Source of the DNA: a virus
IMG/VR virus record: IMGVR_UViG_3300020442_002243
Span: 1-20,782 of that record
Length of the DNA: 20,782 nt
Direction: 5' to 3' (one strand)
Shown here: positions 3,122-19,036 of the stretch, one piece after another
How positions within the stretch are numbered: position 1 is the stretch's first letter
Layout: every line of letters begins with the position of its first letter
Made by a program: the position numbers and the translations under genes
Notes under the pieces: model-generated
Told to the model about the DNA's origin: nothing
What the model saw: the letters and a program-made list of their open reading frames with translations, nothing else
Database searches by the model: none

Positions 3122-3145
3122 TTCTAGTATTTTTTAGTATATATG

Positions 3146-4552
3146 TTAGATCTTCATAATGAAGGCAAGAGCATAATATGGTGGTCTGTTTTCGTGGAAC
3201 TTATCTCCACCTGTATTACCGGTGGTGGTTTGCACTGTATTGCTTCCTCCGCCTCCAACAGAACTACCACCACCTTGAATCTGATTGGATAAGGAGTGAT
3301 TGTGAGCTGCAAGTTCATCGATATCCAGTTGGTGACCACTTTCACCACCAATATCACCAGGTTCATAGGTTGAGTTACTAAGAAGACCCAATCCACCAGT
3401 AGTACGATTAAGAAGAGGACCTGCCTGTGTAGTGGTTCCTGTTTTGTTCATATCATTTGATGCCACTACAAACCTATTTCTTAGGTCTGGAGTTCCATTA
3501 GTTCCATCACAAAATGCCCACCCAGCTGGTGCTGCAGTTCCAGAGAACATCATGATCATACCAGCTATAAATGGACTAGCACCCGATAAATCATACCAAA
3601 CATCACCATCACAAACATCAGTTGTTGGTTCTGCTGTTTGAATATATTTTCTACCATAAGCATTACTTGTAGAACCAATACCTATAGTTGCTGTTGAACC
3701 AACTACTGTCACAGCAATTGGTTCACTACAACTGCGTTCTGTTTGAATATCATCAGAATATTGTTTTAGATCAACACCAGCCGCAGATCCATCAGTTCCT
3801 TGAGTACCATTTATACCAGCAGTACCTTGAGTACCTGTAGCGCCTTGTGCACCAGTGATACCTTGTATTCCTTGAATACCTTGGATACCCTGACGACCTT
3901 GTGTTCCTTGGAGACCCTGAATACCCTGACGACCTTGTGTTCCTTGAGCACCACCACCACCTTGGGTACCTTCACCCTGAAGACCTTGAATACCTTGAGT
4001 TCCAGTTGCTCCTTGAGCACCACCACCACCTTGGACACCATCACCCTGAAGACCCTGAATACCCTGACGACCTTGTGTTCCTTGAGCACCACCACCACCT
4101 TGAGTACCTTCACCTTGAAGTCCTTGAATACCCTGACGACCTTGAGTACCCTGAACACCATCACCTTGAAGACCTTGAGTACCCTGAACACTCTCACCTT
4201 GAAGACCTTGGATACCCTGAGTGCCTTGAGAACCTACGTCTCCAATAGTACCCTGACGACCTTGTGCTCCTTGAGTGCCAGTAGTACCTTGAGAACCACC
4301 ACCACCTTGAGTACCATCAGCACCTTGAATGCCGTCAGTACCTTGAGTACCAGTTATTCCTTGAATACCCTGAATACCTTGTGTTCCTTGAAGACCTTGA
4401 ATACCCTGAATGCCTTGGATACCCTGAAGACCTTGTAAACCTGTACTATCAGAAAATCTAACCCAATAAGTACCATTCCACTTCCAGGTAACACCATTAG
4501 CAGTGTAAAGTTCGTTTAATGCTGGATTTGATGGAAAATCGAATTGCGCCAT
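3146..4552 (-). CDS. Collagen-like tail fibre with phage collar domain
   Basis: The 468-residue protein has three parts. Residues 1-37 form a short N-terminal domain (FDFPSNPALNELYTANGVTWKWNGTYWVRF) seen in marine phage fibres. Residues 38-255 are Gly-X-Y collagen-like triplets, mostly G-I-Q, G-L-Q, G-T-Q and G-R-Q, with short interruptions (GGGG, GDGV, GESV). Residues 329-365 match the phage tail-collar domain (FSGTAAPAGWAFCDG...TPDLRNRFVV), followed by AAHNHS (415-420) and RPPYYALAFIMKI at the end. The architecture indicates a trimeric fibre whose C-terminal head folds and may bind the receptor. A perfect late box lies just upstream at 4569-4576. The long ORFs on the other strand in this region are repeat shadows. 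Confidence 0.9.
   Translation of the reverse strand: MAQFDFPSNPALNELYTANGVTWKWNGTYWVRFSDSTGLQGLQGIQGIQGIQGLQGTQGIQGIQGITGTQGTDGIQGADGTQGGGGSQGTTGTQGAQGRQGTIGDVGSQGTQGIQGLQGESVQGTQGLQGDGVQGTQGRQGIQGLQGEGTQGGGGAQGTQGRQGIQGLQGDGVQGGGGAQGATGTQGIQGLQGEGTQGGGGAQGTQGRQGIQGLQGTQGRQGIQGIQGIQGITGAQGATGTQGTAGINGTQGTDGSAAGVDLKQYSDDIQTERSCSEPIAVTVVGSTATIGIGSTSNAYGRKYIQTAEPTTDVCDGDVWYDLSGASPFIAGMIMMFSGTAAPAGWAFCDGTNGTPDLRNRFVVASNDMNKTGTTTQAGPLLNRTTGGLGLLSNSTYEPGDIGGESGHQLDIDELAAHNHSLSNQIQGGGSSVGGGGSNTVQTTTGNTGGDKFHENRPPYYALAFIMKI
3788..4441 (-). repeat. Collagen-like coding repeat tract, copy 2
   Basis: The tract encodes residues 38-255 of the collar-domain fibre as 9-base Gly-X-Y units with strong nucleotide similarity between units. 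A 32-base stretch (3921-3952) is identical to one in the other fibre gene (5954-5985). Such tracts can expand, contract or recombine. Confidence 0.85.
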
Positions 4553-4568
4553 TATCTAGCTTTTTAAA

Positions 4569-4576
4569 TATTTATA
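4569..4576 (-). promoter_or_regulatory. T4-type late promoter (perfect TATAAATA)
   Basis: The minus strand reads CTATAAATATTT, containing an exact TATAAATA box just after the stop of the lectin-like gene and 17 bases before the ATG of the collar-domain fibre. In T4 this box directs late transcription through gp55; start would be near 4563, leaving a short leader. Confidence 0.72.
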
Positions 4577-4578
4577 GT

Positions 4579-5544
4579 TCAAGTTCCAGCCCATATGGCT
4601 GGAGATTTAGACCCATTATCATGAAATGTACTAACTTCAGTAGAAGATAATTCAATTTTCCACCAAACGGATTTATACCACCTACCACAAAAAGTTGCTG
4701 TGGTATATCCAGCATCAGTTGAACCACCAAATTGCCAATTACCTATAACATAACCAACTTCATTAATAGTATTACTCTCCGTATATGAGTCTCTTAAAGT
4801 TCCATCAACATACAATTTCATATTACCACTAGTTGACATTGTTAAAACCAGAGAATAAAGCGTTTCTTCTGAGAAGACAAAATTAAATATTTTTGCAACA
4901 GTAAAATTACCACTACTATCTCTACGCACTGCCCTTAACTTACTATCACTATCATCAATATACCATCCAACTTTAACTTCTCCTGAAGGTGGATTAGAAC
5001 TTGCTAGATTACCAATTGGTTGTCTAGAAGAACTGCTGCCATTCCCCGATTTTTTATATTTAAACCATAAACCATAACTAAGAGGATATGATCCTGGATA
5101 TGCTTCAATATCATTTCCACCACTATTTGCTGGAGTTAACGTACTAGGTAATCCATCATTAGCTCCAGCAGTTGACCAATCAAATCCTAACGCACTGTCA
5201 AAAGTTAAATGTCTTCCACCAGAATCTGTAGCAATACCAATATAAAAATCTCTTCCACCTAAACCCCAATTAAAATTATTTACAGCACCATTTCTATCAT
5301 CACCACCACCAGCATTCCAGTCAAATCTCCTGTTTATAGCAAGAGTTTGTAAAATTCCACCTTCACCATAAGATGTAGTTGCTGTTGATGGAGCACCGGC
5401 CTCCTGCCATCTTCCACTCCAGGCTGACCACAATCCTCTCAGATTATCAGAAGAATAATACACCAAAACCTCTTCAGGTCTAGGCACATCAGGTTGCTGA
5501 TGAGTAAAAGGTAAAAAATATTGTGATTGTAATGCTCCAGCCAT
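4579..5544 (-). CDS. LamG/jelly-roll lectin-like structural protein, 321 residues
   Basis: The C-terminal half (about residues 155-305) has the pattern of a LamG/concanavalin-like jelly roll: LSYGLWFKYKK, later LYSLVLTMSTSGNMKLYVDGTL and FCGRWYKSVWWKIELSSTEV. The hairpin M-K-L-Y-V-D-G-x-L is the usual signature of such folds, many of which bind carbohydrate. The N-terminal half is rich in Gly, Asn, Trp and Asp (WNAGGGDDRNG near 76-86) and may be another beta domain. No signal peptide is present. Its start ATG overlaps the stop of the upstream fibre gene by one base (TAATG), implying translational coupling. A role in binding host surface glycan is inferred from fold type and position between two fibre genes. 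Confidence 0.75.
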   Translation of the reverse strand: MAGALQSQYFLPFTHQQPDVPRPEEVLVYYSSDNLRGLWSAWSGRWQEAGAPSTATTSYGEGGILQTLAINRRFDWNAGGGDDRNGAVNNFNWGLGGRDFYIGIATDSGGRHLTFDSALGFDWSTAGANDGLPSTLTPANSGGNDIEAYPGSYPLSYGLWFKYKKSGNGSSSSRQPIGNLASSNPPSGEVKVGWYIDDSDSKLRAVRRDSSGNFTVAKIFNFVFSEETLYSLVLTMSTSGNMKLYVDGTLRDSYTESNTINEVGYVIGNWQFGGSTDAGYTTATFCGRWYKSVWWKIELSSTEVSTFHDNGSKSPAIWAGT

Positions 5545-7604
5545 TATGCCAATCCTGTACCAGAAACTAAGAATGTGTTGCTAGCGATACAGAGTATGGT
5601 AGCAATACCATTTTGAACTAGGAACATATCTTGCTCTAGATCAGTTGAAGCATAAATCAAAGTTACACCAGTACCAGCATCAATGTCCCTTCTATATGTT
5701 CCGTTAGAAGTATTTGCATCTGTGTTAATAATAGTTATAGTATCACCAGCAGAGAATACGTTTGGTGGAACGATAATTCTCCAGTTAGCATCAATATTTA
5801 CAATCTTACCATTATCACTTGCTACTAAAGTTGCTGGTGGTGAAGGAGTTAAGTTTTGGTTAGGGCTAGGTCCAAGTGAACGGAATCCTAAACTACCTGC
5901 ACTACCTGCTGTTCCCGGAGCACCAGTAGCACCTTGAGTACCAGCTCCTGTTATACCCTGACGACCTTGTGTTCCTTGAGCACCAGTAGTTCCTTGACTA
6001 CCACCTCCTCCTGCAATACCCTGACGACCCTGAATACCCTGACGACCTTGAGTACCCTGAGTACCCTGAGCACCACCAGTTCCTTGAGTACCAGTTCCTG
6101 TTATACCCTGACGACCTTGAGTGCCCTGAGTTCCTGTAGTACCCTGATTACCTACACCATCTGTTCCATCTGTTCCTTGAGCACCAGTAGTTCCTTGAGT
6201 ACCAGTTCCTGTTATACCCTGACGACCCTGTGTTCCTTGAGCACCACCAGTTCCTTGAGTACCATCACCCTGAAGACCTTGAATACCCTGACGACCTTGA
6301 GTACCCTGACGACCTTGAGTGCCCTGTGCAGCAATGGCTGACGCATCTTGACCTTGAATACCTTGAAGACCTTGAGTACCCTGTGCAGCAATGGATGATG
6401 CATCTTGACCTTGGATACCCTGAATACCTTGGATACCTTGGATACCCTGAATGCCTTGAATACCTTGAATACCTTGAGCACCAGTAGTTCCTTGGAGACC
6501 AGTTCCTTGGAGACCAGTAGCACCTTGAGTACCAGTGAGTCCTTGGAGACCAGCTGGACCTTGAGAAACCTGAACCCAAGCACCATCATAAAAGATTAGT
6601 AATGGTCCATCATCATTATCCCACCATAAGTCAGCATAATCTGGATTTTGTGGTGGGTTTGGTGAAATAGAAACTGTTTTTCCACCACCAGTAAGAACAT
6701 CACTAGAATCAATCCAACTTACACCAACACCTGTTGATACTAATAAAGAAGACGCTGTTCCAACATTTCCATGAATATCTTTAATATATCCTTCTAATTC
6801 AAGTGCTCCTGCCGTAATTTCTTGAGTTACTTCTACATCACCCCTAAAGAATGAATCACCCAAAACATCCAATTGTTTTGTTGGAATAGTACTTCCAATA
6901 CCAACCCTATCAGTATCACTGCGATATACTAACTTATCTGCTCCACCTAAGGCTCCAGCAGTATTATGAAATTGAACCTCAAATATAGTTCCACCAGCAC
7001 CGACAACAATATCTGCTTGTTGCTCCCATACAAGACCGCCAGTAGCACTCTTGACTAGAATCTCCCCTTGACCACCCTCAAAATTATTACTATCATAAAT
7101 CGTACCTAATAATTTTATATCACCATTTACATCTAGTTTTGTTTCTGGAGATGTAGAACCAATACCAAGTCTATTGTTGATATTGTCAAAAATTATTGTA
7201 TCAGTTGTATTAAAATTACCATTATCATTAAATAACAATCCTCTAGTAGAACCAGGAGCAAAGAATCTAACCGTAGCTGCTACTCCAGGATCACTTCCAA
7301 TAGCAGTTACACCAGAACCAGTAAAATTAAGTTGGGTAGTACTATTCGCTACACCAACCAGTGTGCCATCATCAAATACAGAAATTCCAGAAGGAATAAC
7401 TCCACCTGCAATCTCTACCCAGTATCTTTTTCCAGGATTAGATTTAAGAGATACAATTTGATATTGTTGTCCAGGTGGAGGTGATTCACTCTCTGGATCA
7501 CCCAAATTGGGTTCTGCTTGATCTAGACCAAGAAAATTATATCTATCTTCAGTTAATTTGTCTTGAGGAGTTCTTTTTACTCTCCCACTAATATACTTAG
7601 CCAT
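5544..7604 (-). CDS. Collagen-like tail fibre with trimeric fibre repeats
   Basis: The 686-residue protein has an N-terminal region (1-145), then two fibre repeats of the type LGIGSTSPETKLDVNGDI (146-163) and VGIGSTIPTKQLDVLGDS (234-251), common in trimeric phage fibres. A short W-rich piece (DLWWDNDDGPLLIFYDGAWVQV, 325-346) leads into collagen-like triplets at about 349-570. These contain two GQDAS.IAAQGTQG interruptions near 399 and 418. A C-terminal beta-rich cap (590-686) follows, with no collar domain. It shares triplet cassettes with the fibre at 3146-4552, implying paralogy or recombination. Start follows the upstream gene by 6 bases without a clear ribosome binding site. A fibre role is well supported; exact position in the virion is not. 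Confidence 0.85.
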   Translation of the reverse strand: MAKYISGRVKRTPQDKLTEDRYNFLGLDQAEPNLGDPESESPPPGQQYQIVSLKSNPGKRYWVEIAGGVIPSGISVFDDGTLVGVANSTTQLNFTGSGVTAIGSDPGVAATVRFFAPGSTRGLLFNDNGNFNTTDTIIFDNINNRLGIGSTSPETKLDVNGDIKLLGTIYDSNNFEGGQGEILVKSATGGLVWEQQADIVVGAGGTIFEVQFHNTAGALGGADKLVYRSDTDRVGIGSTIPTKQLDVLGDSFFRGDVEVTQEITAGALELEGYIKDIHGNVGTASSLLVSTGVGVSWIDSSDVLTGGGKTVSISPNPPQNPDYADLWWDNDDGPLLIFYDGAWVQVSQGPAGLQGLTGTQGATGLQGTGLQGTTGAQGIQGIQGIQGIQGIQGIQGIQGQDASSIAAQGTQGLQGIQGQDASAIAAQGTQGRQGTQGRQGIQGLQGDGTQGTGGAQGTQGRQGITGTGTQGTTGAQGTDGTDGVGNQGTTGTQGTQGRQGITGTGTQGTGGAQGTQGTQGRQGIQGRQGIAGGGGSQGTTGAQGTQGRQGITGAGTQGATGAPGTAGSAGSLGFRSLGPSPNQNLTPSPPATLVASDNGKIVNIDANWRIIVPPNVFSAGDTITIINTDANTSNGTYRRDIDAGTGVTLIYASTDLEQDMFLVQNGIATILCIASNTFLVSGTGLA
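5895..6560 (-). repeat. Collagen-like coding repeat tract, copy 1
   Basis: The tract encodes residues 349-570 of the 686-residue fibre as Gly-X-Y units. It includes a run of seven consecutive Gly-Ile-Gln triplets (residues 378-398) and two near-identical Gln-Asp-Ala-Ser interruption cassettes. Nucleotide identity with the tract at 3788-4441 is high over stretches of about 30 bases. Confidence 0.85.
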
Positions 7605-7610
7605 ACTTTA

Positions 7611-8591
7611 TTATGATGTGCTATTCTCCAGAATACTCATGATAAATTCCATTTGTAATGGAGCAATTTGACCGCCACTTGAAGAAATACCAACATCAAC
7701 AGTAAAAGTATTTGCTGTTACATTAGCTACCACCAAATCTTGACCAGAGGCAGGATCTGTAGGTCTAGGATAAGTATGAACAGATCTATGTTTATCCATA
7801 CTGCAAGTGAATGAAAGTGAATTATCTGTTATTTGTATTTCATTTCCATTCGATAATCCATGAGCAGCATCAAAACTAAGTGTTAGGATACCAGTATCAG
7901 GAACATATGATCCACCAGTTGGTGTAAACGGTCCACCAACTCCAGTTGTAACTGTTATGGAATTTGCTTCAGATTTAATGAAATTATGATCTGCTGGTTG
8001 ATAAGTGTGTGGAATATTATTAACAACACCAGCATCAACTTGAAACTTTTCTATATCATCAATTGCAGTAACAGTGAATGATCTTTGTGGAGTTGGGAAG
8101 AATGATGTTGTAATACCACCACTATATCCACCACAATCAAATTTGATATTATTCATTGTAATTTCATCATTTACACTAAAACCATGTGGCGATAGTGTTC
8201 TGACTGTTGCTATTCCAGATTGATTATCATAATCTACGTTTGTAATAGTTCCTACACCAGATTGTATTCCTTCAATAACAACTGAATCTTGTACAATCGC
8301 AGTCTTTTCTAGTACAAGTCTTCCATCAATGATGACAAGTGAATCATTAGGTGGAACTTCTACATCTTTTATAACACGAATATTTCTAATATTTCCTGAA
8401 GTCTTTGTCGAAGTACTTGTTCTTCTATGAGTGAATGTAACAGTTGGATATGTGGTTGCAGCACCAACATTAGAAACTGATGCATAAAGAACAATAGCAG
8501 ATACACCAGTAGGAGTTTTATAAACGGTCTGTTCTCCTGGAGCAACTGGTACTGCTACTGTTAAAAATTTATTAAGTGGTGCGATTGCCAT
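7611..8591 (-). CDS. Virion structural protein, 326 residues
   Basis: The protein begins MAIAPLNKFLTVAVPVAPGEQTVYKTPTGVSAIVLYASVSN, a beta-rich opening found in structural proteins of T4-like cyanophages. The body contains two related elements in which a G-x-x-T or G-I-L-T-L strand is followed by a His-Gly turn and a ligand-like EI hairpin: SPHGFSVNDEITMNN (residues 134-148) and AAHGLSNGNEIQITDN. They look like an internal duplication of a beta-sandwich domain. No enzyme motif, signal peptide or coiled coil is seen. It sits one base downstream of the 869-residue protein and upstream of the fibre genes, so a baseplate-to-fibre connector is plausible, but this is inferred from position. Confidence 0.75.
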   Translation of the reverse strand: MAIAPLNKFLTVAVPVAPGEQTVYKTPTGVSAIVLYASVSNVGAATTYPTVTFTHRRTSTSTKTSGNIRNIRVIKDVEVPPNDSLVIIDGRLVLEKTAIVQDSVVIEGIQSGVGTITNVDYDNQSGIATVRTLSPHGFSVNDEITMNNIKFDCGGYSGGITTSFFPTPQRSFTVTAIDDIEKFQVDAGVVNNIPHTYQPADHNFIKSEANSITVTTGVGGPFTPTGGSYVPDTGILTLSFDAAHGLSNGNEIQITDNSLSFTCSMDKHRSVHTYPRPTDPASGQDLVVANVTANTFTVDVGISSSGGQIAPLQMEFIMSILENSTS

Positions 8592-8592
8592 A

Positions 8593-11202
8593 TTATCTCA
8601 GCGCAAGTATGAGTGGTGTAACTTCTGCTTGAATTGATCTACTAAAGTCTCTACCTCGGATAATAGAAGCTGTTTGATCAATTTGAAGACCATCACCAAT
8701 ATCAAAGTTTCCTTTTTGATCGGTGCTTGTAAATGGAATTTGTGCTCCATTACGAGCAACAACTTCATTTTCCTTAATTGGAACTCCACCCTGGAATGGT
8801 AGTGAACTATTTATTAGAGTGCCCGTACCAATATATTCAAAAGAATGAGAAGATGTGAGAATTCTGCTAATCCTTCTCAGTTCCATTGGATCATTAGCAA
8901 ATAATTCAAATGGAATGAATTCATTAAATGTAATTGTTGTGATACCAGTAGCAGCTACTGGTTCTGTTGCTTCTAGAACCGTAAAATAGATAGGTTCCAT
9001 TATTGCAGTAGCAAGCGTAGTATCACCATCAATATCAACAACTATATTCTGTGTTGCTAAGTAATTTCTTCCAGAGTTTATAACATCAATTTCTACAATT
9101 CTTCCATCAGCATCAATAGTAGCATCAGCCTCAGCAATAATACCCTGTGGTCCTTTTGGAGTCAGTTCACCATCAGCATCACGAATAATAACACTTGGAG
9201 GACTTTCTTGACTAAATCCTGATCCAGGATTATCTACTCGGATAGATTGTAGTCTTTCTAATGGATCAGCAATTCTACCAGAACCAACTGCGTCTGGATA
9301 ATTATCCAAATCAATTTTAAACCATAATGCCTGACCATCATAAGGTCTTCTGAAATTATTACTAGAATCACTAAGTCCTACAGCAACAACAACATCGAGT
9401 TCTGCTATTTGATCAACATTAACTCTTCCAGTATAATCTATTGCACCCAAACCATCAGCAACTAATCCAAAGTTACCAAAGGATGAGTTGGAGTTTGTTA
9501 AATCACATTGCCCACCAGTATCAGCATAAATTCCAATATCACAGTTAATTGTAAAGATAGAAACTAACTGTGCATAAGCATTATTAGTTAAAGATACACC
9601 AATACCTGCCTCATTATACTGGGTAAATGAATCACAAACCATTGATTTAATATCTGCACCAGGAATTGATGCTGTTGCATCATCTCCATTAATTCTCATA
9701 CCAATACTTCCAGTCATGAAGTTGGTACAGTTCCTAATATATGGAGATCTCCATCTATTCGTCGGTCCTGCTGTTGCTGGACCAACATCTGTAAATCCAC
9801 TAGCAGCATTTACTCCTGTTATTGGGAACGCAACAGCACCAGCAATAGGACCATGTTGAACACCAACAGTTGCTCCTGCAAAGTTTAAATTCTCAATTAA
9901 ACACCCTCTTCTAACCCAAAAAACATCTTTATCTTGATTTTGTGGTTCGATTGTGACGAGTCTTAAATCTTCTCCAGTAATAGAAACATCTCTATTAAGT
10001 CCCACTGGATTGTTCTCAATATATCTTCCAGGACGAATCTTAATCGTGTCACCAGGTTGAGCAATAGAAGCTGCTGCTCCTACCGTTGCTTTAGCATCAC
10101 CTTCCAGTAATCCACTATTAGAGTCATCACCATCTTTTGATACCCAAATGGTATTTTCTGTTTCTACACCAGATGGTCTCCAAGATACACCTGTACCAAC
10201 AGATGATAAACGATAATCTTTCCCTGCTTCTCCTGTTTCCTGATTTATATCAATCAAAGAATTATTCAGTTCTGTTGTTCCATCTACTTCTAAAGTACTA
10301 TTAAGTGTTGTAGCATTATCAACATCTAAAGTATTATTGAGTGTCGTAGCACCATCAACATTTAGAGTTCCATTTACATCTAATGCAAATCCTGGATTAT
10401 TTCTATTAATTCCAACATTGGTCATTCTGTAAATGTTACCAGAATCATTATACCCCCACAAATCTTGTGTTTGTATTCTAGCAATTTCAATAGGGTTAGA
10501 TGGATCAGGTATTGGAATACATGTATCTGTACCAACACCTAAACTATTACTCTGCACATAGTTAAATACAGTAAAAGACTGTGCAGCACCTACAAGGGGT
10601 ATATACTGACCCTCATCCTGAACAAAAATACCTTCAGAGAATGCTGGTTCAAATGTAACCCAACGAATACCAAATTGATCACGATTCAAAAATGCACCGT
10701 TCACACCAGGAGAATTTGCTGAGTCATAGATAAACTCATCAATTTTAACACTACCTATTACATCCAGTAGTTGTTCAGGAGAATCTGAATTAATACCAAC
10801 CTGTCCATCAATTATTAATGTTTTGTCTATGGCATGTGCAGTTATAAAAGTACTTCCAATACCAGTGGTTCCAAAAGCTAATAAATCTTTATCAAAATCT
10901 AGTTGAAATAAATGTGTACCAGTTGTTGCAAGTCCTACAGTAAATAACTCTTTAACCAAAAGATTATCTACTGTGAGATCATCTATATTAACATCACCAT
11001 AAAAGGTTGAAATTCCAATAACTTCTAGGTTACCATTAATCTCGATATCACCTTCAATATCAAATTCACCATTAGAAATTATATCTCCATTAAAAATAGA
11101 ATCACCATCTGAGGTGAATCCATTTGCCATAAAGACATTATCATAAAAGGTTACCCTTTTATTAAAAAAAGTTTCCTTACCGTGTACCTGAATATCACTC
11201 AT
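8593..11202 (-). CDS. Large structural protein with parallel beta-helix domain
   Basis: The 869-residue protein starts with repeated short beta units (FNGDIISNGEFDIEGDIEINGNLEVIG, residues 37-63) typical of fibre shafts. Fibre repeats of the V-G-I-N-x-x-x-P-x-x-L-D-V-x-G type occur at about 135-150 and 263-278, followed by DVDNATTLNS-like repeats (280-315). From about residue 350 to 590 comes a pectate-lyase-like beta-helix, beginning TIWVSKDGDDSNSG and PGDTIKIRPGRYIENNP. The C-terminal 250 residues are beta-rich with a GSGFSQESPPSVII element. No catalytic acid cluster can be assigned, so it is called structural. It begins one base after the needle gene and links the hub block to the fibre block. 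It could be a baseplate wedge or fibre protein. Confidence 0.8.
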   Translation of the reverse strand: MSDIQVHGKETFFNKRVTFYDNVFMANGFTSDGDSIFNGDIISNGEFDIEGDIEINGNLEVIGISTFYGDVNIDDLTVDNLLVKELFTVGLATTGTHLFQLDFDKDLLAFGTTGIGSTFITAHAIDKTLIIDGQVGINSDSPEQLLDVIGSVKIDEFIYDSANSPGVNGAFLNRDQFGIRWVTFEPAFSEGIFVQDEGQYIPLVGAAQSFTVFNYVQSNSLGVGTDTCIPIPDPSNPIEIARIQTQDLWGYNDSGNIYRMTNVGINRNNPGFALDVNGTLNVDGATTLNNTLDVDNATTLNSTLEVDGTTELNNSLIDINQETGEAGKDYRLSSVGTGVSWRPSGVETENTIWVSKDGDDSNSGLLEGDAKATVGAAASIAQPGDTIKIRPGRYIENNPVGLNRDVSITGEDLRLVTIEPQNQDKDVFWVRRGCLIENLNFAGATVGVQHGPIAGAVAFPITGVNAASGFTDVGPATAGPTNRWRSPYIRNCTNFMTGSIGMRINGDDATASIPGADIKSMVCDSFTQYNEAGIGVSLTNNAYAQLVSIFTINCDIGIYADTGGQCDLTNSNSSFGNFGLVADGLGAIDYTGRVNVDQIAELDVVVAVGLSDSSNNFRRPYDGQALWFKIDLDNYPDAVGSGRIADPLERLQSIRVDNPGSGFSQESPPSVIIRDADGELTPKGPQGIIAEADATIDADGRIVEIDVINSGRNYLATQNIVVDIDGDTTLATAIMEPIYFTVLEATEPVAATGITTITFNEFIPFELFANDPMELRRISRILTSSHSFEYIGTGTLINSSLPFQGGVPIKENEVVARNGAQIPFTSTDQKGNFDIGDGLQIDQTASIIRGRDFSRSIQAEVTPLILALR

Positions 11203-11203
11203 T

Positions 11204-11782
11204 CTAGAAACCTAAGAGAGATGAAACTGTATTTAAAATTGGATTACTAGCACCAACAAGATCACTAACAACATCCTCACCAACATAGGAACCAGCAAAT
11301 ACTTGCTGCGTAAATCCTTTTCCAAGATCATCAATCAGATTTCCAGTAGGAGCATCATAATCAATCTTGTTTCCTTGCATCAGGATTCTACCTGATCCAG
11401 AATTCATCGTTATATTTCTTCCTGCCTTGAATTGGATATCTTCATCCGCTTCAATCATAACATTCTCTGCTCTGATTCTAACCATACCCTCAGCAGCAGA
11501 GAGGGATATATTTCCATTCTTACCAATTAAAACAATATCTTCAGATTTTGCAGTGTTCTTTTCACCAGCACATATCTCAATCACATGGTCATTGTGAATG
11601 GACATGAACCCAGAAGAGCTCAGCGAAATAGAAGACTGATTGCTTCCATCATCAGTGACGCCATACATTGTATAAACATCAGTTCCACTGACACCCATTT
11701 GGGGATTAGCAGTATCAATCCTAAAATTAGTATTGAAACTAATTAGTTGTCTTCTAAAAATATTCTGCGGTCTTTCAGACAT
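11204..11782 (-). CDS. Beta-helical needle protein (gp5 C-terminal-like)
   Basis: The 192-residue protein contains a run of regular beta-strand units at about residues 82-145 (IVLIGKNGNISLSAAEGMV, then IRAENVMIEADEDIQFKAG and RNITMNSGSGRILMQGN). These resemble the trimeric beta-helix of the T4 gp5 C-terminal needle and VgrG tips, where alternating hydrophobic and polar residues face in and out. The N-terminal 30 residues (RPQNIFRRQLISFNTNFRID) may join the hub; the C-terminus is helical and hydrophobic. It lies one base downstream of the OB-fold gp5-like gene, suggesting they act together, with the needle as a separate polypeptide. The needle role is inferred from repeat pattern and gene order. 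Confidence 0.75.
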   Translation of the reverse strand: MSERPQNIFRRQLISFNTNFRIDTANPQMGVSGTDVYTMYGVTDDGSNQSSISLSSSGFMSIHNDHVIEICAGEKNTAKSEDIVLIGKNGNISLSAAEGMVRIRAENVMIEADEDIQFKAGRNITMNSGSGRILMQGNKIDYDAPTGNLIDDLGKGFTQQVFAGSYVGEDVVSDLVGASNPILNTVSSLLGF

Positions 11783-11783
11783 T

Positions 11784-13661
11784 TTAATCTGGGCAATCTA
11801 TGGAGATATTAAGACCCTCTGGAAGTCTTACTTTACCAAGCAATGGTCGTAATATAGCACCATTACCATTTGAACTTTCAACAAATAAGAGTGGTAGAGA
11901 ATCTGTGAGGTTAATATCACTATTTAGAGGTTTAACACTATTAATTTGTCCGTTTACAACTTGAGTTACATACTCATTTCCTTTATCATCAACCACAATA
12001 TCTCCATCTTCATAACCATCTCCACCATCCTCAACGATAACATCAATAATAATATAATCATCTATATCACCTACACAATAATTCTCACCTTCAGAAACAA
12101 TATAGATTGATTCTACTTCACCTTTATCATTGATAATGGACCTAGCAATTCCACCATATCCCTGATTGCTATTATCTACAATCTCTACAAATGGTGGGAA
12201 AGTATAACCAGAACCGCCGTTCGTAACCTGAACACCAATCACACTACCAAGTGCAACACATTCAGACTCATTCTCGATAGGAACAATATTACCAAAAATA
12301 GGAACTGCAGTAGCACCAGAACCTGGTCCACCAAATATCTCAACCGTAGGTGGACTTGATGCTGGTGGACCAGTAAAGCATTCTGTTATTGAATTTAAAT
12401 CAATCCCAGCATTAGCAGCATCAGCAAGTTCTTGTATTGCTGTATAAGAATCTGGTCCAATCGCTTTTGCTCCAGCACCAACTATCCACTGGTCAATCAT
12501 ACCCTGGAAGTTCTTTGTGCCTTGGTTACAATCAAATGCTGCGACTGCTGCTCCAACAATACCATCAATAACTCCTCTAGCAAGATTGCCAATATCAAAA
12601 TCGGTAAAGAATTGGAGAAGTTTGTCAACCAAAGCAAGAGGACCAGTCATCAGATTCTCAAGAACACCAATCATAGTATTCAGCAAAGAACCAACAAATT
12701 GATCAGAAGCACAAGTTACAAAATTTTCAACTTCTGCTAATGTTGAATAAATTAAATCCTCAACTTGAGATGTAATACTATTAATCACACCAGAAGCAAC
12801 ACAAGTAAACTGATCTTCCAAAGCTTTAACTGGACCAAGCATTGCTTCCTGTGCAGCAACACCTGCATCGTGTGCGATAGGATCACTTAAAGTTGCAGCA
12901 AAAGTTAAACTATAAACCAAATCATATAACAATTCCAATCCACCTTTAAGAACAGTTCTCAATTGTGTTATAACCTCACCCATGAAAATTCCAACATATT
13001 CATTCATCAAAACAACAATCTTATCTGTTGCTTGACGAATATAACCACTTATCTGTGAAATTTCATTTTGTGCTCTCTGAAGTTGTTTAAGAAGCCAATC
13101 AATAGTTGATTTAACTTTATTAATCTTGGAATTCTGTGCGTTATTTGCAAGAGGAACTAGATCTTTTATTGCTTCACTTCTAGGTAAGCGACCATATGCT
13201 AATGCTGTATTAATATCAAGTAGTGGTGGTGTCGGTTGTGAAGTCTTTTTTGGTTCATTTGTATGATCATCATTCACCTTAGCATTTACAGGATCTGTAG
13301 CTGGTCTTGGTTCTGGTGTTACTTGTGCCTGAGCAGGAAATACATTTGTAATTACTGGTTGTTGTCCATCATCACCATCTAAAAAGAAACCAACAACTCT
13401 ATCACCAGGTTTGATCTGAATACCTTGAGCGACATTTGCTAGACCAGAACCTGCTGTAGTCGGAATGAGTGCTGTTGCCCATGGTAAATCCTCATCCGCT
13501 AACTCTTGTGTATGGTAACCTTGAATGCGAACTTTAAATCGGTTTCCCCATCCACCACCTTCTACTTGTTTGCCCTGAGCTTCAAGAGGGGCTACTTTTC
13601 CAACCCACCAGAAGAAACCATCTCTACCAATAACATTAGTCTGAAAATTGTTATCAATCAT
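11784..13661 (-). CDS. 5: gp5-like baseplate hub protein (OB-fold, no lysozyme domain)
   Basis: Residues 14-110 match the gp5 N-terminal OB-fold: WWVGKVAPLE, RFKVRIQGYH, LPWATALIPTTAGSG, IKPGDRVVGFFLDGDDGQQPVITNV. These parallel the T4 gp5 order of strands, the LPW motif and the V-G-x-F-L-D hairpin. Residues 170-430 are mainly helical and hydrophobic, replacing the lysozyme domain of T4 gp5. The C-terminal part (about 470-625) holds beta repeats beginning VTNGGSGYTFPPFVEI, again distinct from the T4 needle. Its ATG overlaps the gp27-like stop by 8 bases. It probably forms the central hub spike with the gp27-like protein, while puncturing enzyme and needle are on other genes. Confidence 0.85.
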   Translation of the reverse strand: MIDNNFQTNVIGRDGFFWWVGKVAPLEAQGKQVEGGGWGNRFKVRIQGYHTQELADEDLPWATALIPTTAGSGLANVAQGIQIKPGDRVVGFFLDGDDGQQPVITNVFPAQAQVTPEPRPATDPVNAKVNDDHTNEPKKTSQPTPPLLDINTALAYGRLPRSEAIKDLVPLANNAQNSKINKVKSTIDWLLKQLQRAQNEISQISGYIRQATDKIVVLMNEYVGIFMGEVITQLRTVLKGGLELLYDLVYSLTFAATLSDPIAHDAGVAAQEAMLGPVKALEDQFTCVASGVINSITSQVEDLIYSTLAEVENFVTCASDQFVGSLLNTMIGVLENLMTGPLALVDKLLQFFTDFDIGNLARGVIDGIVGAAVAAFDCNQGTKNFQGMIDQWIVGAGAKAIGPDSYTAIQELADAANAGIDLNSITECFTGPPASSPPTVEIFGGPGSGATAVPIFGNIVPIENESECVALGSVIGVQVTNGGSGYTFPPFVEIVDNSNQGYGGIARSIINDKGEVESIYIVSEGENYCVGDIDDYIIIDVIVEDGGDGYEDGDIVVDDKGNEYVTQVVNGQINSVKPLNSDINLTDSLPLLFVESSNGNGAILRPLLGKVRLPEGLNISIDCPD

Positions 13662-14991
13662 TATCGTCTCTTGCCTCTTTATTGATTCCGAATGTATCTC
13701 TAACTAATTTCATTGAAGTGTACGATCCTTTCGTATCAAAATAATGACATAATTCTTTTATCATATATAGACCACTTGTTTCAGTATCAAACTCAACTGT
13801 CTTTGAATCTGAGATTCTAGGGAACATACATTCAATAACATCACCTGCTCTCAGATTAGTATTTGAAGAAACTGTTATGGATAATGTTTGAATAAACAAG
13901 GTATTATATCTCATCAACTTTTGTGATTGATAATTTGCCTGATCATTATTTACATCTTCACTAGCAGCATCCTTCGCTCCAACATCTAAGACAGCACTAA
14001 TAACTCTAGATGGTGATTGACCAAGAGGTTTTTCAAGTCCTTCAATGACTGGTAAATCTAGTTCAGGTGATCCCAGATGTTTTACAGTTTCCTTATATAA
14101 GTTTTCGTCATATCCAATTTTAACAGATTCAAAAGTAAGTGGGTTGAAATAATATCTTTCACTAGAATATGCTCCCATTCTCAACTTTTCAATCAGATTT
14201 TGATTTCTATCTACACTATAAGTTAAAATCTTTCTATCATTATTGATCTTTCTTTCTTCATTATCATAAGCAAGACTTACTTCAGAATAATAATACGTTG
14301 CTTTTGGTTTCTTTTTAACCAACTTATCAAGTGATTTAAATCTAAATCCATCCTTTGTCTGGAAGAATACAAATCCAGCACTCTCATTAGCAATCGTTGA
14401 AATACATTTAGATGCTAACCAAGTTATGACCCAGAAAGGTTTTTTATTATTACCAATAAAATCATATGAATTTTTAACTTCATCAAAATTACTAAAGTTA
14501 AATTTATCAGTCTTTAATACATTAGTCAAAATTGTATTTACAGAGTCTCTTATATTTCCAGTATATCTCAACTTGACTCTATTAGTTTCGTTCATCAATG
14601 CTTCTTTTGAAACTAGATTGAGAGTAAATACTTCTCTCTTAGTTTCAGACATCACATCACTTATACTAGAGACATATAAAGAATCCTCAGCTTTCAACGA
14701 GAAATCTAGTCCTGGATTTGAAACAGAGTTGCCTGATATTTTTAGTTCTAACTTCTCACCACCACGAAGAGGGAGACCATTATAGATTGATTGTGAATAT
14801 GTACCAGCATCATCAAAAGGTTTGATAGCACCAGAGGCATTTACAACGTGTACCTTTGCTGTGATTGTAGGAGAAAGAATATCCTCATAATATGAGATAC
14901 CAATAATTCCAGCACGAATATCTACACTTCTACTAGTGTCTTGAGCAGAAAATAATTCTGCTTTTTCTACAATTGACTTGAGTATTGACAT
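13654..14991 (-). CDS. 27: gp27-like baseplate hub protein
   Basis: The 445-residue protein is similar in length to T4 gp27 (391) and lies directly before the gp5-like gene, as gp27 partners gp5 in the hub. It starts with MSILKSIVEKAELF and SVDIRAGIIGISYYEDILSPTITAKVHV, a beta-barrel type opening. Further features are GEKLELKISG, the VFTLNLVSKEALMNETNRV strand, a helical part (RDSVNTILTNVLKTDKF) and KPFWVITWLASKC. The end contains RAGDVIECMFPRI and SGLYMIKELCHYFDTKGSYTSMKLVRDTFG, typical of tail-hub proteins that pass the tail tube onto the spike. Its start overlaps the upstream stop by one base (TAATG). I am confident about the family, less about individual domains. Confidence 0.87.
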   Translation of the reverse strand: MSILKSIVEKAELFSAQDTSRSVDIRAGIIGISYYEDILSPTITAKVHVVNASGAIKPFDDAGTYSQSIYNGLPLRGGEKLELKISGNSVSNPGLDFSLKAEDSLYVSSISDVMSETKREVFTLNLVSKEALMNETNRVKLRYTGNIRDSVNTILTNVLKTDKFNFSNFDEVKNSYDFIGNNKKPFWVITWLASKCISTIANESAGFVFFQTKDGFRFKSLDKLVKKKPKATYYYSEVSLAYDNEERKINNDRKILTYSVDRNQNLIEKLRMGAYSSERYYFNPLTFESVKIGYDENLYKETVKHLGSPELDLPVIEGLEKPLGQSPSRVISAVLDVGAKDAASEDVNNDQANYQSQKLMRYNTLFIQTLSITVSSNTNLRAGDVIECMFPRISDSKTVEFDTETSGLYMIKELCHYFDTKGSYTSMKLVRDTFGINKEARDDND

Positions 14992-16814
14992 TATTGTTGC
15001 AATTTATCGAAAACTAATTGTTTCCATAATCTATTTACCACAGAAAGAGTATTGTCTTCTGCAAGATCCAACCCACTCTCAGATACTATTGGTGGAGATT
15101 GTTGATTCATCTGAGATTTTTTCACCATAATAATTTTTGTGCCTTGTCTTACTGGAGTAAGTGTATCCAAATATTTAAGTGGATTCATAGTTCCTTCAAA
15201 TCCATAACTTTCACTACCACCTTTTCTTATCTCATAGTGGAATACTCCTGTTTGATGAGTACCTCTCTGAATTGGTGTTCCTGGTTGAACTTTATCACCA
15301 ACACTAACTAAGTTCTCAGATCCTTCTGCAATTCTTTCAGTTACACCCAGTTTCTTATTATAAATGTCAACATAATTACCATAACCTTCATCAGAATCTT
15401 TCAAAATTCTCACAACTTTTCCACCAATTCTAGAATAGAAAGTATCATTTGGTCCAGCATCAAAGTCTTGACCAGCATGTCTTCTTGCACCTTGATCTCT
15501 TGAAGCTCCATAATTCTGCCCTTCCAATGTATTAGTTGGTGGCAGATTGGGAAGCATTGTCGATTGTGGTTGTGTCTTAGCAGTCTGTGATGCCTTGACT
15601 TTTGAATCATAAAGGTTCTTGAGTGTTTCATATCTCTTAACTGGTTGACCATATGTACTTCTACCAGCAACATTAGGAATAGATGCCCATTCAGGTGAAA
15701 GTGCAGCAGATATTTCTCTACTAAATCCCATCGATTTCAATGCTTGTAAAGTAACACCTCTTTGTTGACACAAAGTTACTGCTCCTTTATCCTGATTACT
15801 AGGCGACATATTCATACCACCGGTTTCTGGAATATTTCCACCAGCAGCACAGGCACCACCTAATCCAATCCAAGTTCTAGGCATAAATTGATACCTACCA
15901 AAGGCAGCACTAGCATATCCAGGAGTTCTTTTTACTATGTTGGGGTGCTTACTCAGATCTTCTGTTTGATCAAAACCAAAGTGAGTATTATATCCATTGT
16001 TTGGTTGATCAAAAGTTCCTTCAGCAAAAGCAATAACATCTAAAAGAGCTCTCCATTCTATTGCTAATCCTGCTCCAGGAACTGCACCAGAACCTGTTAT
16101 TACTGCAGGTTTAGGATCTGGTGGTCTTCCTTGACCGTAAGTTCCTTCTCCAAATGATGTTCCATCTTTTCCATCCCCAGTATTTGCTTGAGCATCAGGT
16201 CCTGTACTTCCAAAAGGTGGAATCACTTGACCACTATATGCTCCTTTTCCTTCTTCATCTATAAGTGGTGTTGTAAGTAACTTAGCACTCTCATCAAGTT
16301 CTCCTGCAATGCTATTAAACTCTTTGGTAATTTCTTCCCATGCCTTATTGAGTCTTCCTTGAGAATCATTAAAATCAAACTCTTTTAAATTCGTAAACGC
16401 TGCAACTATAAGGTCCTTCATTCCAGTAAATATTCCCTTCACCGAATCAAATATGTTAACTGCTATTTCTTTAAATTTCTCTGCTCTAGCAAGAAATTCT
16501 TGACCATAACCAATTAAAGTTGGGAGATTATTAAGTAACCATCCTGCGGCAAGATATCCCATAAACTTCAATATTCTTCCCAAAAGATCCTTTCCTGCAC
16601 CAGCGATCTTAGTCAACCCAATTCTACCAGAGAATGATTTTACAAGATTGGAAGCTTCAAGAGCACTTTCATTTGCTCTTCTTCTTGTATTCTCTTTTCT
16701 CCTTCTTTTTAAAGTAAGACTTTTACGAAATTGTTTCTCATTAAACTTCTTTCGCTTAACGATCAAACTTCTTATATTTTCTAAGTTTTCTTCTATTGAT
16801 TTATTGACGCTCAT
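14991..16814 (-). CDS. Hub lysozyme: GH104 (lambda R-like) domain plus degenerate M23 peptidase domain
   Basis: Residues 1-60 are highly basic and helical, followed by a hydrophobic segment (ILKFMGYLAAGWLLNN, 81-96). About 250-400 match lambda R-type murein transglycosylases: ALLDVIAFAEGT with the catalytic-type Glu at 265, SAAFGRYQF (302-310), SPSNQDKGA (337-345), WASIP (376-380) and YGQ (388-390). About 430-550 match M23/LytM endopeptidases: HAGQDFD (H446, D450) and VFHYEIR (H526) keep the three zinc ligands, but the two catalytic His positions appear as V524 and, in the RIAEGSEN stretch, none. The protein probably replaces the lysozyme of T4 gp5 and digests peptidoglycan during DNA entry. 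A GGAG ribosome binding site at 16823-16826 lies 8 bases before the ATG. Confidence 0.85.
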   Translation of the reverse strand: MSVNKSIEENLENIRSLIVKRKKFNEKQFRKSLTLKRRRKENTRRRANESALEASNLVKSFSGRIGLTKIAGAGKDLLGRILKFMGYLAAGWLLNNLPTLIGYGQEFLARAEKFKEIAVNIFDSVKGIFTGMKDLIVAAFTNLKEFDFNDSQGRLNKAWEEITKEFNSIAGELDESAKLLTTPLIDEEGKGAYSGQVIPPFGSTGPDAQANTGDGKDGTSFGEGTYGQGRPPDPKPAVITGSGAVPGAGLAIEWRALLDVIAFAEGTFDQPNNGYNTHFGFDQTEDLSKHPNIVKRTPGYASAAFGRYQFMPRTWIGLGGACAAGGNIPETGGMNMSPSNQDKGAVTLCQQRGVTLQALKSMGFSREISAALSPEWASIPNVAGRSTYGQPVKRYETLKNLYDSKVKASQTAKTQPQSTMLPNLPPTNTLEGQNYGASRDQGARRHAGQDFDAGPNDTFYSRIGGKVVRILKDSDEGYGNYVDIYNKKLGVTERIAEGSENLVSVGDKVQPGTPIQRGTHQTGVFHYEIRKGGSESYGFEGTMNPLKYLDTLTPVRQGTKIIMVKKSQMNQQSPPIVSESGLDLAEDNTLSVVNRLWKQLVFDKLQQ

Positions 16815-16819
16815 TTATA

Positions 16820-18148
16820 TTACTCCACCAAATTAAAAAGATTTTTTGCGGTAGATGTATATTGGTTATCTAAATCTGAAGAACTAATAGCAGGAACATC
16901 TGTTCCACTATCAACTGCACCACCAGGATTCCATGAACCAACTCCATCACTAGGTCCATCTTCAACATAAACTATTTCTGGTGGCATATCCATCAATGTT
17001 AGATCTTTAAACTTCTGATTTATTTTTGAGAAGTTAAGATGATCAAGTTTATTTTCAGGCTCAAAGTAGTATCCCTCATCAAACTCAGACTTAATAGCAC
17101 CAACAGTGAATGCTGCTGAAAGAGCCTGAGTATATCCACTAGGGAAAAGATTAGCAACTCCACCAGCGGCATACATTCCAGCAGCTTCTGTATTCCCACG
17201 CATATATGCCTTAACGGCATCATAAAAATCAACTGCAGATCCTATAACAGGGAATGACCCGGCTAAAATTCTACCACCAAATCTCTGACCAACTTTAACA
17301 CCTGTCTTTTGAGCAGCGGTCTCTGCCAATTCAGAACCAATTTTTTTACCAAATACCTTAGCACCTAATGCTGCAAATTTATTTGAAACCTTAATACCAA
17401 GTTTTTTTGCAAAATCAGGAGCAACTGCAGCAAATCCTGCTCTTATTGTCTTAAAAGTAACCTTAGCAAGTTTGCCTAAAAGTTGAAAAGATTTTCTTGC
17501 TCCCTTAATAAGTAATTTTCCTATAGATTTACCTATTCCCAAAAATGACCTAATAAGTCTATTAATCCCTCGCCAAACAGCACCAACTAGAGTAACTGCT
17601 TTAGTAATTTTATCTATGATATTATCTTTAATTTTCTTTAATTCATCTATTGCCCCATCACGGGCTGCTTCCAAAGCCTTAAGACCTTGATTTGCTAACC
17701 AACCTACACCTAATAAAAGGAAGAAATTCTTTATACGATCAAATATATTACCAAGTTTGTTCTGAACTTTCTGAACAGGTTTTTCTATAGCAGAGGATAT
17801 TTTATCACCAACACCTTCAAGTGCAGCCTCAGATGCTTCTCTACGATTATTTCTAGTTTCTTGTGCTATTCTCTTTTGCTCAGATAATACTCTAAGTTTT
17901 TCTTCCTCAGATTCCAACAATAAGAGACCGTAGATATTAGTCAGACCATTATTGATATTGACTAATTGAGTCTGCAGATTTATTATTTGATCTTGTAAAG
18001 AAATATCGCTCTGATTGTTCTCTTGTATTAATTTCTGCTGATCTATTAAAGCCTGCTGTGGACGTACTAATCTAGATCCACCAGAAAAACGTGCTCTGGT
18101 GGCAGTGCCTCTATTCCCAAATAGTGATCGCAGGCTCAGTCTAGCCAT
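16820..18148 (-). CDS. Helical tape-measure-like tail/hub protein, 442 residues
   Basis: The protein is basic and largely helical. Residues 35-110 look like a coiled coil (QQKLIQENNQSDISLQDQII, LQTQLVNINN, EEEKLRVLSEQKR). Residues 141-160 are hydrophobic (FFLLLGVGWLANQGLKALE), 240-290 are Lys/Gly/Ala-rich, and 289-352 form a Gly/Ala-rich hydrophobic segment like a membrane hairpin (VIGSAVDFYDAVKAY, AAGMYAAGGVANLFPSGY). The C-terminal 50 residues are acidic. Lying after the putative frameshifted chaperone and before the hub, it occupies the place of a tape measure, but at 442 residues it is shorter than T4 gp29 (590). A hub component is the alternative. The upstream stop overlaps its start by 8 bases. 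Confidence 0.72.
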   Translation of the reverse strand: MARLSLRSLFGNRGTATRARFSGGSRLVRPQQALIDQQKLIQENNQSDISLQDQIINLQTQLVNINNGLTNIYGLLLLESEEEKLRVLSEQKRIAQETRNNRREASEAALEGVGDKISSAIEKPVQKVQNKLGNIFDRIKNFFLLLGVGWLANQGLKALEAARDGAIDELKKIKDNIIDKITKAVTLVGAVWRGINRLIRSFLGIGKSIGKLLIKGARKSFQLLGKLAKVTFKTIRAGFAAVAPDFAKKLGIKVSNKFAALGAKVFGKKIGSELAETAAQKTGVKVGQRFGGRILAGSFPVIGSAVDFYDAVKAYMRGNTEAAGMYAAGGVANLFPSGYTQALSAAFTVGAIKSEFDEGYYFEPENKLDHLNFSKINQKFKDLTLMDMPPEIVYVEDGPSDGVGSWNPGGAVDSGTDVPAISSSDLDNQYTSTAKNLFNLVE

Positions 18149-18314
18149 TTTGTTGTGCTTTTAAGTTTTCCTCTTCAATGTATTGCGCTAGGAGAGTAAC
18201 ATATATTTCTCGTTCCCAAGGCATCATATTTTCTAGTTCTGTTAATGAGTATTTATGATGCTGCATCAAAGAAAAATTAGTTTTGTAGTATGACTCAAGA
18301 CTTTCATGAGCCAT
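18141..18314 (-). CDS. Small tail assembly chaperone-like ORF, 57 residues
   Basis: The 57-residue ORF (MAHESLESYYKTNFSLMQHH, then YSLTELENMMPWEREIYVTLLAQYI) is helical. It lies between the gp26-like gene and the tape-measure-like gene, where tail assembly chaperone second parts occur in other phages. Its ATG is 2 bases after the gp26-like stop and no Shine-Dalgarno sequence precedes it. It lies in the -1 frame relative to gp26-like, with no stop between, so a slip at 18323-18329 would join RLA plus this ORF to the upstream protein. Its stop overlaps the next start by 8 bases. Whether it is made alone, as a fusion, or both cannot be decided from sequence. Confidence 0.8.
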   Translation of the reverse strand: MAHESLESYYKTNFSLMQHHKYSLTELENMMPWEREIYVTLLAQYIEEENLKAQQNG

Positions 18315-18329
18315 CGCTAAGCGAAAAAA
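18292..18329 (-). promoter_or_regulatory. Candidate -1 programmed frameshift site (slippery heptamer plus stem-loop)
   Basis: On the minus strand the end of the gp26-like gene reads TCT TTT TTC GCT TAG. The heptamer T-TTT-TTC (18323-18329) fits the X-XXY-YYZ rule in the correct frame. Ten bases after it, GGCTCA (18307-18312) can pair with TGAGTC (18292-18297) across a 9-base loop, giving a possible stimulatory hairpin. Slippage would give a 298-residue fusion instead of the 239-residue product. Confidence 0.6.
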
Positions 18330-19036
18330 GATGTTAATCCTTCCAGCGTAACATCACTCTCAACACCAGTCTTTGGATTTTTAATCGTAATGGTATGAGC
18401 CAACTTAGGCATAGTCTCAAAGAAAGTTTCAATTTCTTTGAATTGTGTAGACGTAAGTTGCTCCAAAAATTCTCTCAACTCTTTAGGTGTTGAATCAGAA
18501 CTTGCCCAAGATTCCTCTTCATTATAAATTTGTTCGATGCATCCAGTAATCATACCAAAGGTATCATCAATACTCATATCTTCTTCGTTTGAGAAGTTAC
18601 TCTTTACAAATTCATTCAATGAAGGATACTTCATACGAAGAGTCAATTCATCATCGAGTTTAATATCTCTATTATGCTTTGGATCCTTAACAACTTTAAT
18701 CTCATCGAGATTAATCACCATAGGAACTTGAGTCTCCTCATCATCTGGACAAGTAACCATTACCTCAACTTCTTCACCAACAGACTTACCACGAATGTTG
18801 AGAAACAAATATTCAATATCAAAAGTAGAAAGTTTATCTACTTTCACACCACGAGTAATGATACAGTTATTGATTACATTCTTTACAGATTCAGCAATCT
18901 CTTTAGGGTCATTAGTCTCCATAGCAAGGAGAAGAATTTTTTCTTCTTTTACTAGGAATGGACGATACTTAATTTTCTTCTTAGTTGATGGTATTTCCAA
19001 TTCATATGTTGGAGTTGCAATTTTTGGTAAAGGCAT
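18317..19036 (-). CDS. 26: gp26-like baseplate hub / tail assembly protein
   Basis: The 239-residue protein matches the T4 gp26 baseplate family in the form seen in T4-like cyanophages: MPLPKIATPTYELEIPSTKK, KYRPFLVKEEKILLLAMET, NCIITRGVKVDKLSTFDIEYLFLNIRGKSVGE, a CPDDEETQV loop, LRMKYPSLNEF and EFLEQLTSTQFKEIETFFETMPKL near the C-terminus. T4 gp26 has 208 residues. It would act in assembling the baseplate hub. It ends TSFFA on a T-rich run that may allow -1 slippage into the next ORF. A late-promoter-like box lies at 19057-19064; the ATG has no strong ribosome binding site. The palindrome TGAGTGACTCA just before the start may affect initiation. Confidence 0.88.
   Translation of the reverse strand: MPLPKIATPTYELEIPSTKKKIKYRPFLVKEEKILLLAMETNDPKEIAESVKNVINNCIITRGVKVDKLSTFDIEYLFLNIRGKSVGEEVEVMVTCPDDEETQVPMVINLDEIKVVKDPKHNRDIKLDDELTLRMKYPSLNEFVKSNFSNEEDMSIDDTFGMITGCIEQIYNEEESWASSDSTPKELREFLEQLTSTQFKEIETFFETMPKLAHTITIKNPKTGVESDVTLEGLTSFFA

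Follow-up and report, generated by a model that had tools for sequence, protein, structure and literature searches.

Among cell-puncturing devices T4 gp5 is the textbook example, and the locus considered here raises the question of how its work is apportioned in a T4-like cyanophage whose OB-fold, needle and muralytic enzyme are encoded by different genes. The window, meaning the whole stretch that was analysed, is the entire 20,782-base IMG/VR virus record IMGVR_UViG_3300020442_002243, a fragment of a T4-like cyanophage (Kyanoviridae). An initial annotation had read a run of its genes as T4 gp5 split into separate OB-fold, needle and enzyme genes, and the open reading frames (ORFs) that it named are all present, intact and adjacent on the minus strand. 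The observation is confirmed, and the interpretation is partly supported: the three functions do lie in separate genes, but 'split gp5' describes them less well, as the layout is family-wide and the enzyme belongs to an unrelated paralogous pair. The window probably contains a Kyanoviridae tail-tip module that distributes the tasks of T4 gp5 over separate chains. Judged from sequence comparison, the enzyme is no part of gp5 that has moved elsewhere; it sits in an unrelated pair of paralogous genes, here called X and Y, whose enzyme domain differs from virus to virus by exchange. The features that carry this reading are as follows (lengths in amino acids, aa).

11204..11782, minus strand: probable needle, a VgrG/gp5C-type beta-helix in a gene of its own, 192 aa (phrog_3363; profile matches).
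11784..13661, minus strand: gp5-like hub ring protein without lysozyme, 625 aa (OB domain at about residues 17-110, helical middle 179-369, beta C-terminus 439-610).
13332..13613, minus strand: Gp5-type OB domain (Gp5_OB, PHROGs, hhalign to T4 gp5, Protein Data Bank (PDB) profile matches, modelled strands).
12555..13127, minus strand: helical stretch at the place of the T4 gp5 lysozyme (AlphaFold2 helices; no enzyme family match).
13654..14991, minus strand: hub protein in the gp27 position, 445 aa (phrog_350, E=1e-103; conserved place adjoining gp5).
14991..16814, minus strand: slot protein Y, 607 aa (N-terminal module, GH104 lysozyme and degenerate M23-like domain).
16395..16814, minus strand: N-terminal module of Y, residues 1-140 (the X N-terminus is homologous).
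15600..16058, minus strand: GH104 (lambda R-type) lysozyme domain of Y, residues 253-405, putative catalytic Glu265 (3d3d/1am7, phrog_90).
15213..15482, minus strand: M23-like domain of Y, residues 445-534 (PF01551, 33.3 bits against a cut-off of 28.7).
16820..18148, minus strand: slot protein X, 442 aa, a Y paralogue without a recognised enzyme (phrog_3405 common to Y; hhalign).

The OB-fold that had been proposed for the 625-residue protein is borne out by several searches. The Pfam match to Gp5_OB is marginal (E=0.0023, under the family cut-off), the match to phrog_1922 is strong (E=8e-81), and the family profile aligns with T4 gp5 at 92% probability (hhalign, E=6e-7). Profile searches of the PDB recover the central spikes of T4 and KP1, with matches confined to the OB stretch, and the AlphaFold2 model, computed from an alignment of the window and IMG/VR rows only and of low confidence (mean predicted local distance difference test score, pLDDT, 61), has T4 gp5 (1k28) as its top PDB fold match. 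In this model OB strands are found at residues 17-23, 41-46, 61-64, 88-96 and 99-108, and the middle of the protein is occupied by helices at 179-196, 201-257, 260-273, 275-310, 318-343 and 357-369, again at low confidence. A lysozyme hidden in this protein, which the initial annotation had named as counter-evidence, was not found: lysozyme families matched none of 33 OB orthologues (the window protein and 32 relatives), and T4 gp5, run as a positive control, matched phrog_7 (E=8e-22). Of the features that mark the gp5 family, the protein thus has the OB domain, and has neither lysozyme nor needle in the same chain. Cyanophage gp5 orthologues are still labelled 'tail lysozyme', and those tested hold no lysozyme.

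Gly/Tyr-rich beta repeats in the C-terminal third of the OB protein match the repeat-type families phrog_4406, 701 and 460. The fibre genes at 7611-8591 and 8593-11202 match the same families, which suggests that predicted spike and fibre proteins have a beta module in common.

The adjoining 192-residue protein had been described as a needle-like beta-helix, and profile searches agree. Residues 50-145 match DUF2345 (E=6.2e-7; 29.8 bits, slightly under the cut-off of 30.7), residues 78-144 match phrog_4540 'hub and tail lysozyme', and the family profile matches the VgrG spike 8gra in the PDB (E=1.4e-5). In the AlphaFold2 model residues 90-130 form an extended chain with a pLDDT of 85-89. The predicted beta-helix is therefore well supported, if not proven. 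No PAAR-type needle-tip gene was seen beside the needle near 11204, and one may lie outside the fragment; such a gene is found nearby in T4 (5.4) and in S-CRM01 (L107:234-527).

The muralytic activity is assigned to protein Y, where the initial annotation had placed a lambda R-like lysozyme, not of T4 type, behind a different N-terminal module; both parts of that description stand. The domain at residues 253-405 matches lambda lysozyme (1am7/3d3d, E=2.5e-6) and phrog_90 (E=1.7e-22), Glu265 (AEGT) aligns with lambda Glu19 (SEGT), and the EGT and GRYQ motifs recur in the closest relatives of this domain. By these matches Y carries a GH104 lysozyme in which the putative catalytic Glu is kept. The M23-like domain that follows is altered. 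On inspection of the alignment the zinc-ligand positions His446, Asp450 and His525 (HxxxD and the second His of HxH) are retained and both catalytic His are substituted, the motifs reading ERIAEG and TGVFHYE. The same class, ERIAEG/TGV[FI]HYE, occurs in L008 and L014-L021, about ten viruses in all, so that it represents a conserved altered class and not a local mutation. The domain is absent from the initial annotation, and it may be a pseudoenzyme that binds peptidoglycan without cutting it.

The N-terminal module of Y leads to a second protein. The 442-aa product of X, which the initial annotation had missed, is by profile comparison a paralogue of the Y N-terminus: the two profiles align over 134 N-terminal columns (hhalign, 98% probability, E=1.6e-13), and this common module makes X and Y paralogues at least over that part. 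X and Y of S-PM2 belong to one PHROG, and both families have conserved C-terminal tails. Hydropathy peaks of X and Y reach 1.0-1.3, and no clear membrane helix is claimed. Among 35 relatives no Pfam enzyme was recognised in X, and its PDB profile matches to huntingtin fusions and a toxin were set aside as chance matches of low-complexity or hydrophobic sequence.

The arrangement is not peculiar to the window. Its nearest cultured relative is the Synechococcus phage S-SRM01 (Kyanoviridae), with identities of 60% for the needle, 54% for the gp27-position protein and 46% for gp5, and a metagenomic near-twin (L008/L023) shows 94-100% identity for four of six hub genes, 89% for X and 96% for Y. In order of transcription on the minus strand the window encodes the gp26-like and gp51-like proteins, X, Y, the gp27-position protein, the OB protein and the needle. 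Among 80 needle loci, which were retrieved through the needle gene and therefore favour the separate-gene layout, the gp27-position, OB and needle genes were separate ORFs in that order at 73 of 73 loci, and gp26, X, Y, gp27, gp5 and needle were all in order at 57. The tail-tip layout is the same in the isolates S-SRM01, S-CAM7 and P-SSM2 and largely the same in S-SKS1, S-T4 and S-PM2. Cultured Kyanoviridae (S-SRM01, S-CAM7, P-SSM2, S-PM2, S-CREM2) agree with the window in gene order, in the lysozyme-free OB protein, in the separate needle and in the X-Y pair. The separate-gene layout is thus normal for this cyanophage family and visible in public annotations, which makes it of moderate interest alone.

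What varies is the enzyme. Most of the relatives examined have an X-Y pair flanked by gp51 and the gp27-position gene, and only one slot gene is found in S-CRM01 and S-RSM4. Pfam matches among 48 Y proteins comprise M23 (31), Phage_lysozyme2 (11), SLT (6), SLT_3 (3) and M15_3 (2), with single cases of GH24, VanY, Amidase_5, Hydrolase_2 and CHAP. In some isolates X has an enzyme of its own: GH19 in S-CREM2 and S-N03, a GH73-type glucosaminidase in S-SCSM1, VanY in S-CREM1 and Phage_lysozyme2 in S-PM2. Whereas Y of the window combines GH104 with the degenerate M23 domain, S-SRM01 has M23 with a weak SLT match, S-CAM7 has an Amidase_5/NlpC-type domain, and the S-CREM2 pair has GH19 and GH24. As far as domain assignments go, the enzyme domain of the slot has repeatedly been exchanged for unrelated muralytic enzymes among related phages. 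Among open-access papers none was found that treats X and Y as one exchangeable slot. The S-PM2 X protein (L109:1813-5316) joins Phage_lysozyme2 to an ADP-ribosyltransferase domain in its N-terminal part (PF01129, E=1.3e-5, residues 66-218), and the tail slot of that phage may also carry an activity directed at the host.

In the arrangement that we favour, with the gp5 jobs divided among separate chains, three copies of the OB protein would make up a ring that sits on the gp27-position protein, and a needle trimer below the ring would pierce the outer membrane on sheath contraction. X and Y would be carried in the virion at the hub or in the tail lumen, held by their common N-terminal module, and would be released into the periplasm; the GH104 domain would cut glycan strands, and the M23-like domain may only bind peptidoglycan. 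Such an enzyme could be swapped without rebuilding the spike because it is not built into the ring-needle protein. A place in the virion is consistent with work on S-CREM2, where mass spectrometry of virions detected both slot proteins with 73 and 71 unique peptides (PMC10665884), and on S-SCSM1, where both (ORF213/214) were detected (PMC9602691); the authors of these studies took them for endolysins or regarded them as not structural.

Like the T4 gp5-gp27 complex, the predicted module has an OB ring beside a hub protein, a beta-helix needle and a tail-delivered muralytic enzyme; unlike T4, it has OB, needle and enzyme in separate genes, an OB protein without lysozyme, and, in place of a T4-type lysozyme, GH104 and an M23-like domain in a paralogous two-gene slot. 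The T4 needle is itself cut from gp5 at maturation, between Ser351 and Ala352 (PMC3004832), so that T4 virions too contain the needle as a chain of its own and the end state is similar. The hub of the Anabaena myophage A-1(L) (PMC10966104) resembles the window in delivering several wall enzymes and in having a central spike of only OB and beta-helix; it differs in that the hub protein gp15 itself contains the lysozyme-like, endoglucanase and peptidase domains, whereas the window has separate slot genes. In the T4-like Sinorhizobium phage phiN3 (L112:4592-7770) the OB domain and the gp5 trimerisation domain form one protein, and an M15 peptidase is encoded in the adjoining gene.

Several points weigh against this reading. 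The gene between the OB and enzyme genes had been called gp27-like, and its position is as described: relatives of its product are annotated 'baseplate hub protein' or 'baseplate central spike'. The family nevertheless shows no detectable similarity to T4 gp27 when aligned with that single sequence (hhalign), and a PDB profile search gave no match, so the label rests on position and on the annotation of relatives. The needle family did not match T4 gp5C in a direct hhalign comparison, and the needle monomer model had no significant PDB fold match (spikes were listed at E of about 1-2), although a monomer is a poor query because the native form would be an intertwined trimer. The glycan-cleaving activity of the GH104 domain is a prediction, the virion evidence for slot proteins comes from distant relatives and not from the window virus, and a search of the open-access literature found no structure of a Kyanoviridae tail tip.

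The alternative that survives best extends the separate-chains reading rather than opposing it. It holds that X and Y are tape-measure proteins, two paralogous chains that occupy the tube of the tail, determine how long it is and deliver wall enzymes to the host, as tape measures do in some other phages, and we give it slightly less than even weight. The X-Y pair adjoins gp51 and gp27, near the place of genes 28-29 in T4, and the tape measure of cyanophages and pelagiphages could not be identified in an earlier study (PMC7029224). Published tail lengths are about 100 nm for S-SRM01 (PMC8557907), 113.6 nm for S-SZBM1 (upper value of a range; PMC9146016), 124 nm for MS29 (PMC10436341), 129 nm for S-H34 and 138 nm for S-N03 (PMC7472177), 140-170 nm for S-CRM01 (155 used; given in PMC10665884), 165 nm for S-CREM1 (PMC9964418), 173 nm for S-SCSM1 (PMC9602691) and 418 nm for S-CREM2 (PMC10665884). 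X length follows tail length in eight isolates, MS29 being left out (r=0.92, rho=0.81), as does Y length in seven (r=0.91, rho=0.86), both without correction for kinship; the lengths of gp27, gp5 and gp26 in the same phages bear no relation to it. X corresponds to 0.13-0.19 nm of tail per residue in eight of nine isolates, close to the value for an alpha-helix (0.15 nm), and X and Y lengths covary (rho=0.86 over 32 phages). In S-CREM2, with its 418-nm tail, X and Y have 1565 and 1456 aa; relatives with 138- and 129-nm tails and the same enzyme types have 933/722 and 936/735 aa. The mycobacteriophage TM4 offers a precedent in a tape measure with an active muralytic motif (PMC1796659): like X and Y it is a virion protein with a long structural part and a muralytic domain, its length being tied to the tail, but TM4 is a siphovirus and its tape measure is a single gene, and for X and Y the role is hypothetical.

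Against these observations, the correlation draws on few isolates of uncorrected kinship, whose tails were measured in different laboratories, and S-CREM2 is a high-leverage point: once that phage is left out, the X correlation falls to r=0.71 (p=0.07, n=7), and at 0.27 nm per residue S-CREM2 fits X alone poorly. S-CRM01 and S-RSM4 have a single slot gene only. X has no profile similarity to T4 gp29 (hhalign, 1.2% probability), nor does it match the genes that follow gp51 in phiN3 and Melnitz. The 'tape measure' PHROG matches of Y prove nothing, as they fall on the M23 domain. The idea was also drawn from the data that support it, and an independent test is therefore needed. The fuller proposal, a duplicated two-gene tape measure with interchangeable enzymes, in which one slot would link tail length with wall specificity and make up for the enzyme that gp5 lacks, is more tentative still, at roughly one chance in three. 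S-CREM2 ORF124, a 2668-aa virion protein, was considered as the tape measure and judged unlikely, since S-CRM01 has a 2484-aa protein at a seemingly corresponding place and a tail of 140-170 nm. One metagenomic locus, L012, has an unusually long slot pair of 1559 and 1246 aa (2950-7629 and 7633-11373), comparable to the S-CREM2 pair (L103:6484-15555; 1565 and 1456 aa); if X and Y are tape measures, this virus is predicted to have a very long tail.

That a T4-type gp5 fusion was ancestral and was then broken up in the window lineage is unlikely. In its favour, the OB domain and that of T4 gp5 are homologous. Against it, the needle has no detectable similarity to gp5C, the separate layout is general in the family, and the enzymes, which a paralogous gene pair encodes, come from families with no relation to the lysozyme of T4 gp5. 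As the enzyme is not homologous to that lysozyme, its replacement or independent recruitment is a better fit than fission. Most improbable is that X and Y act late, as endolysins in host lysis, and are no more than neighbours of the baseplate genes, a view in keeping with 'endolysin' annotations in S-N03, S-H34 and S-T4 and with the interpretation of slot proteins as lysis enzymes in PMC7472177, but at odds with the mass spectrometry that places them in virions of two relatives (PMC10665884, PMC9602691), with large common N-terminal modules and conserved C-terminal tails unlike those of ordinary endolysins, and with a fixed place in the hub operon between gp51 and gp27.

With the gp5 functions taken as divided among separate chains, the swappable two-gene slot may encode wall specificity in phages that abound in marine and fresh waters. 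Should the same slot prove to be the tape measure, it would name the protein that others could not find, and the control of tail length in cyanophages could be tested directly, the 418-nm tail of S-CREM2 included. Worth following are the exchangeable slot for enzymes, the altered class of M23 that is conserved, and the relation to length.

Two further genes stand upstream of X in the transcription order.

18141..18314, minus strand: gp51-like hub assembly factor, 57 aa (ORF seen at a lower size limit; matches S-SRM01 gp51).
18317..19036, minus strand: gp26-like baseplate hub/assembly protein (PF12322, E=3.5e-76; phrog_150, E=4.5e-83).

The 57-aa ORF equals the annotated gp51 of S-SRM01 in size, in place and in its overlap with X. 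Downstream of the fibre genes, three consecutive tRNA genes (Leu-TAA, Met-CAT, Ile-TAT) lie at positions 486-710 of the window.

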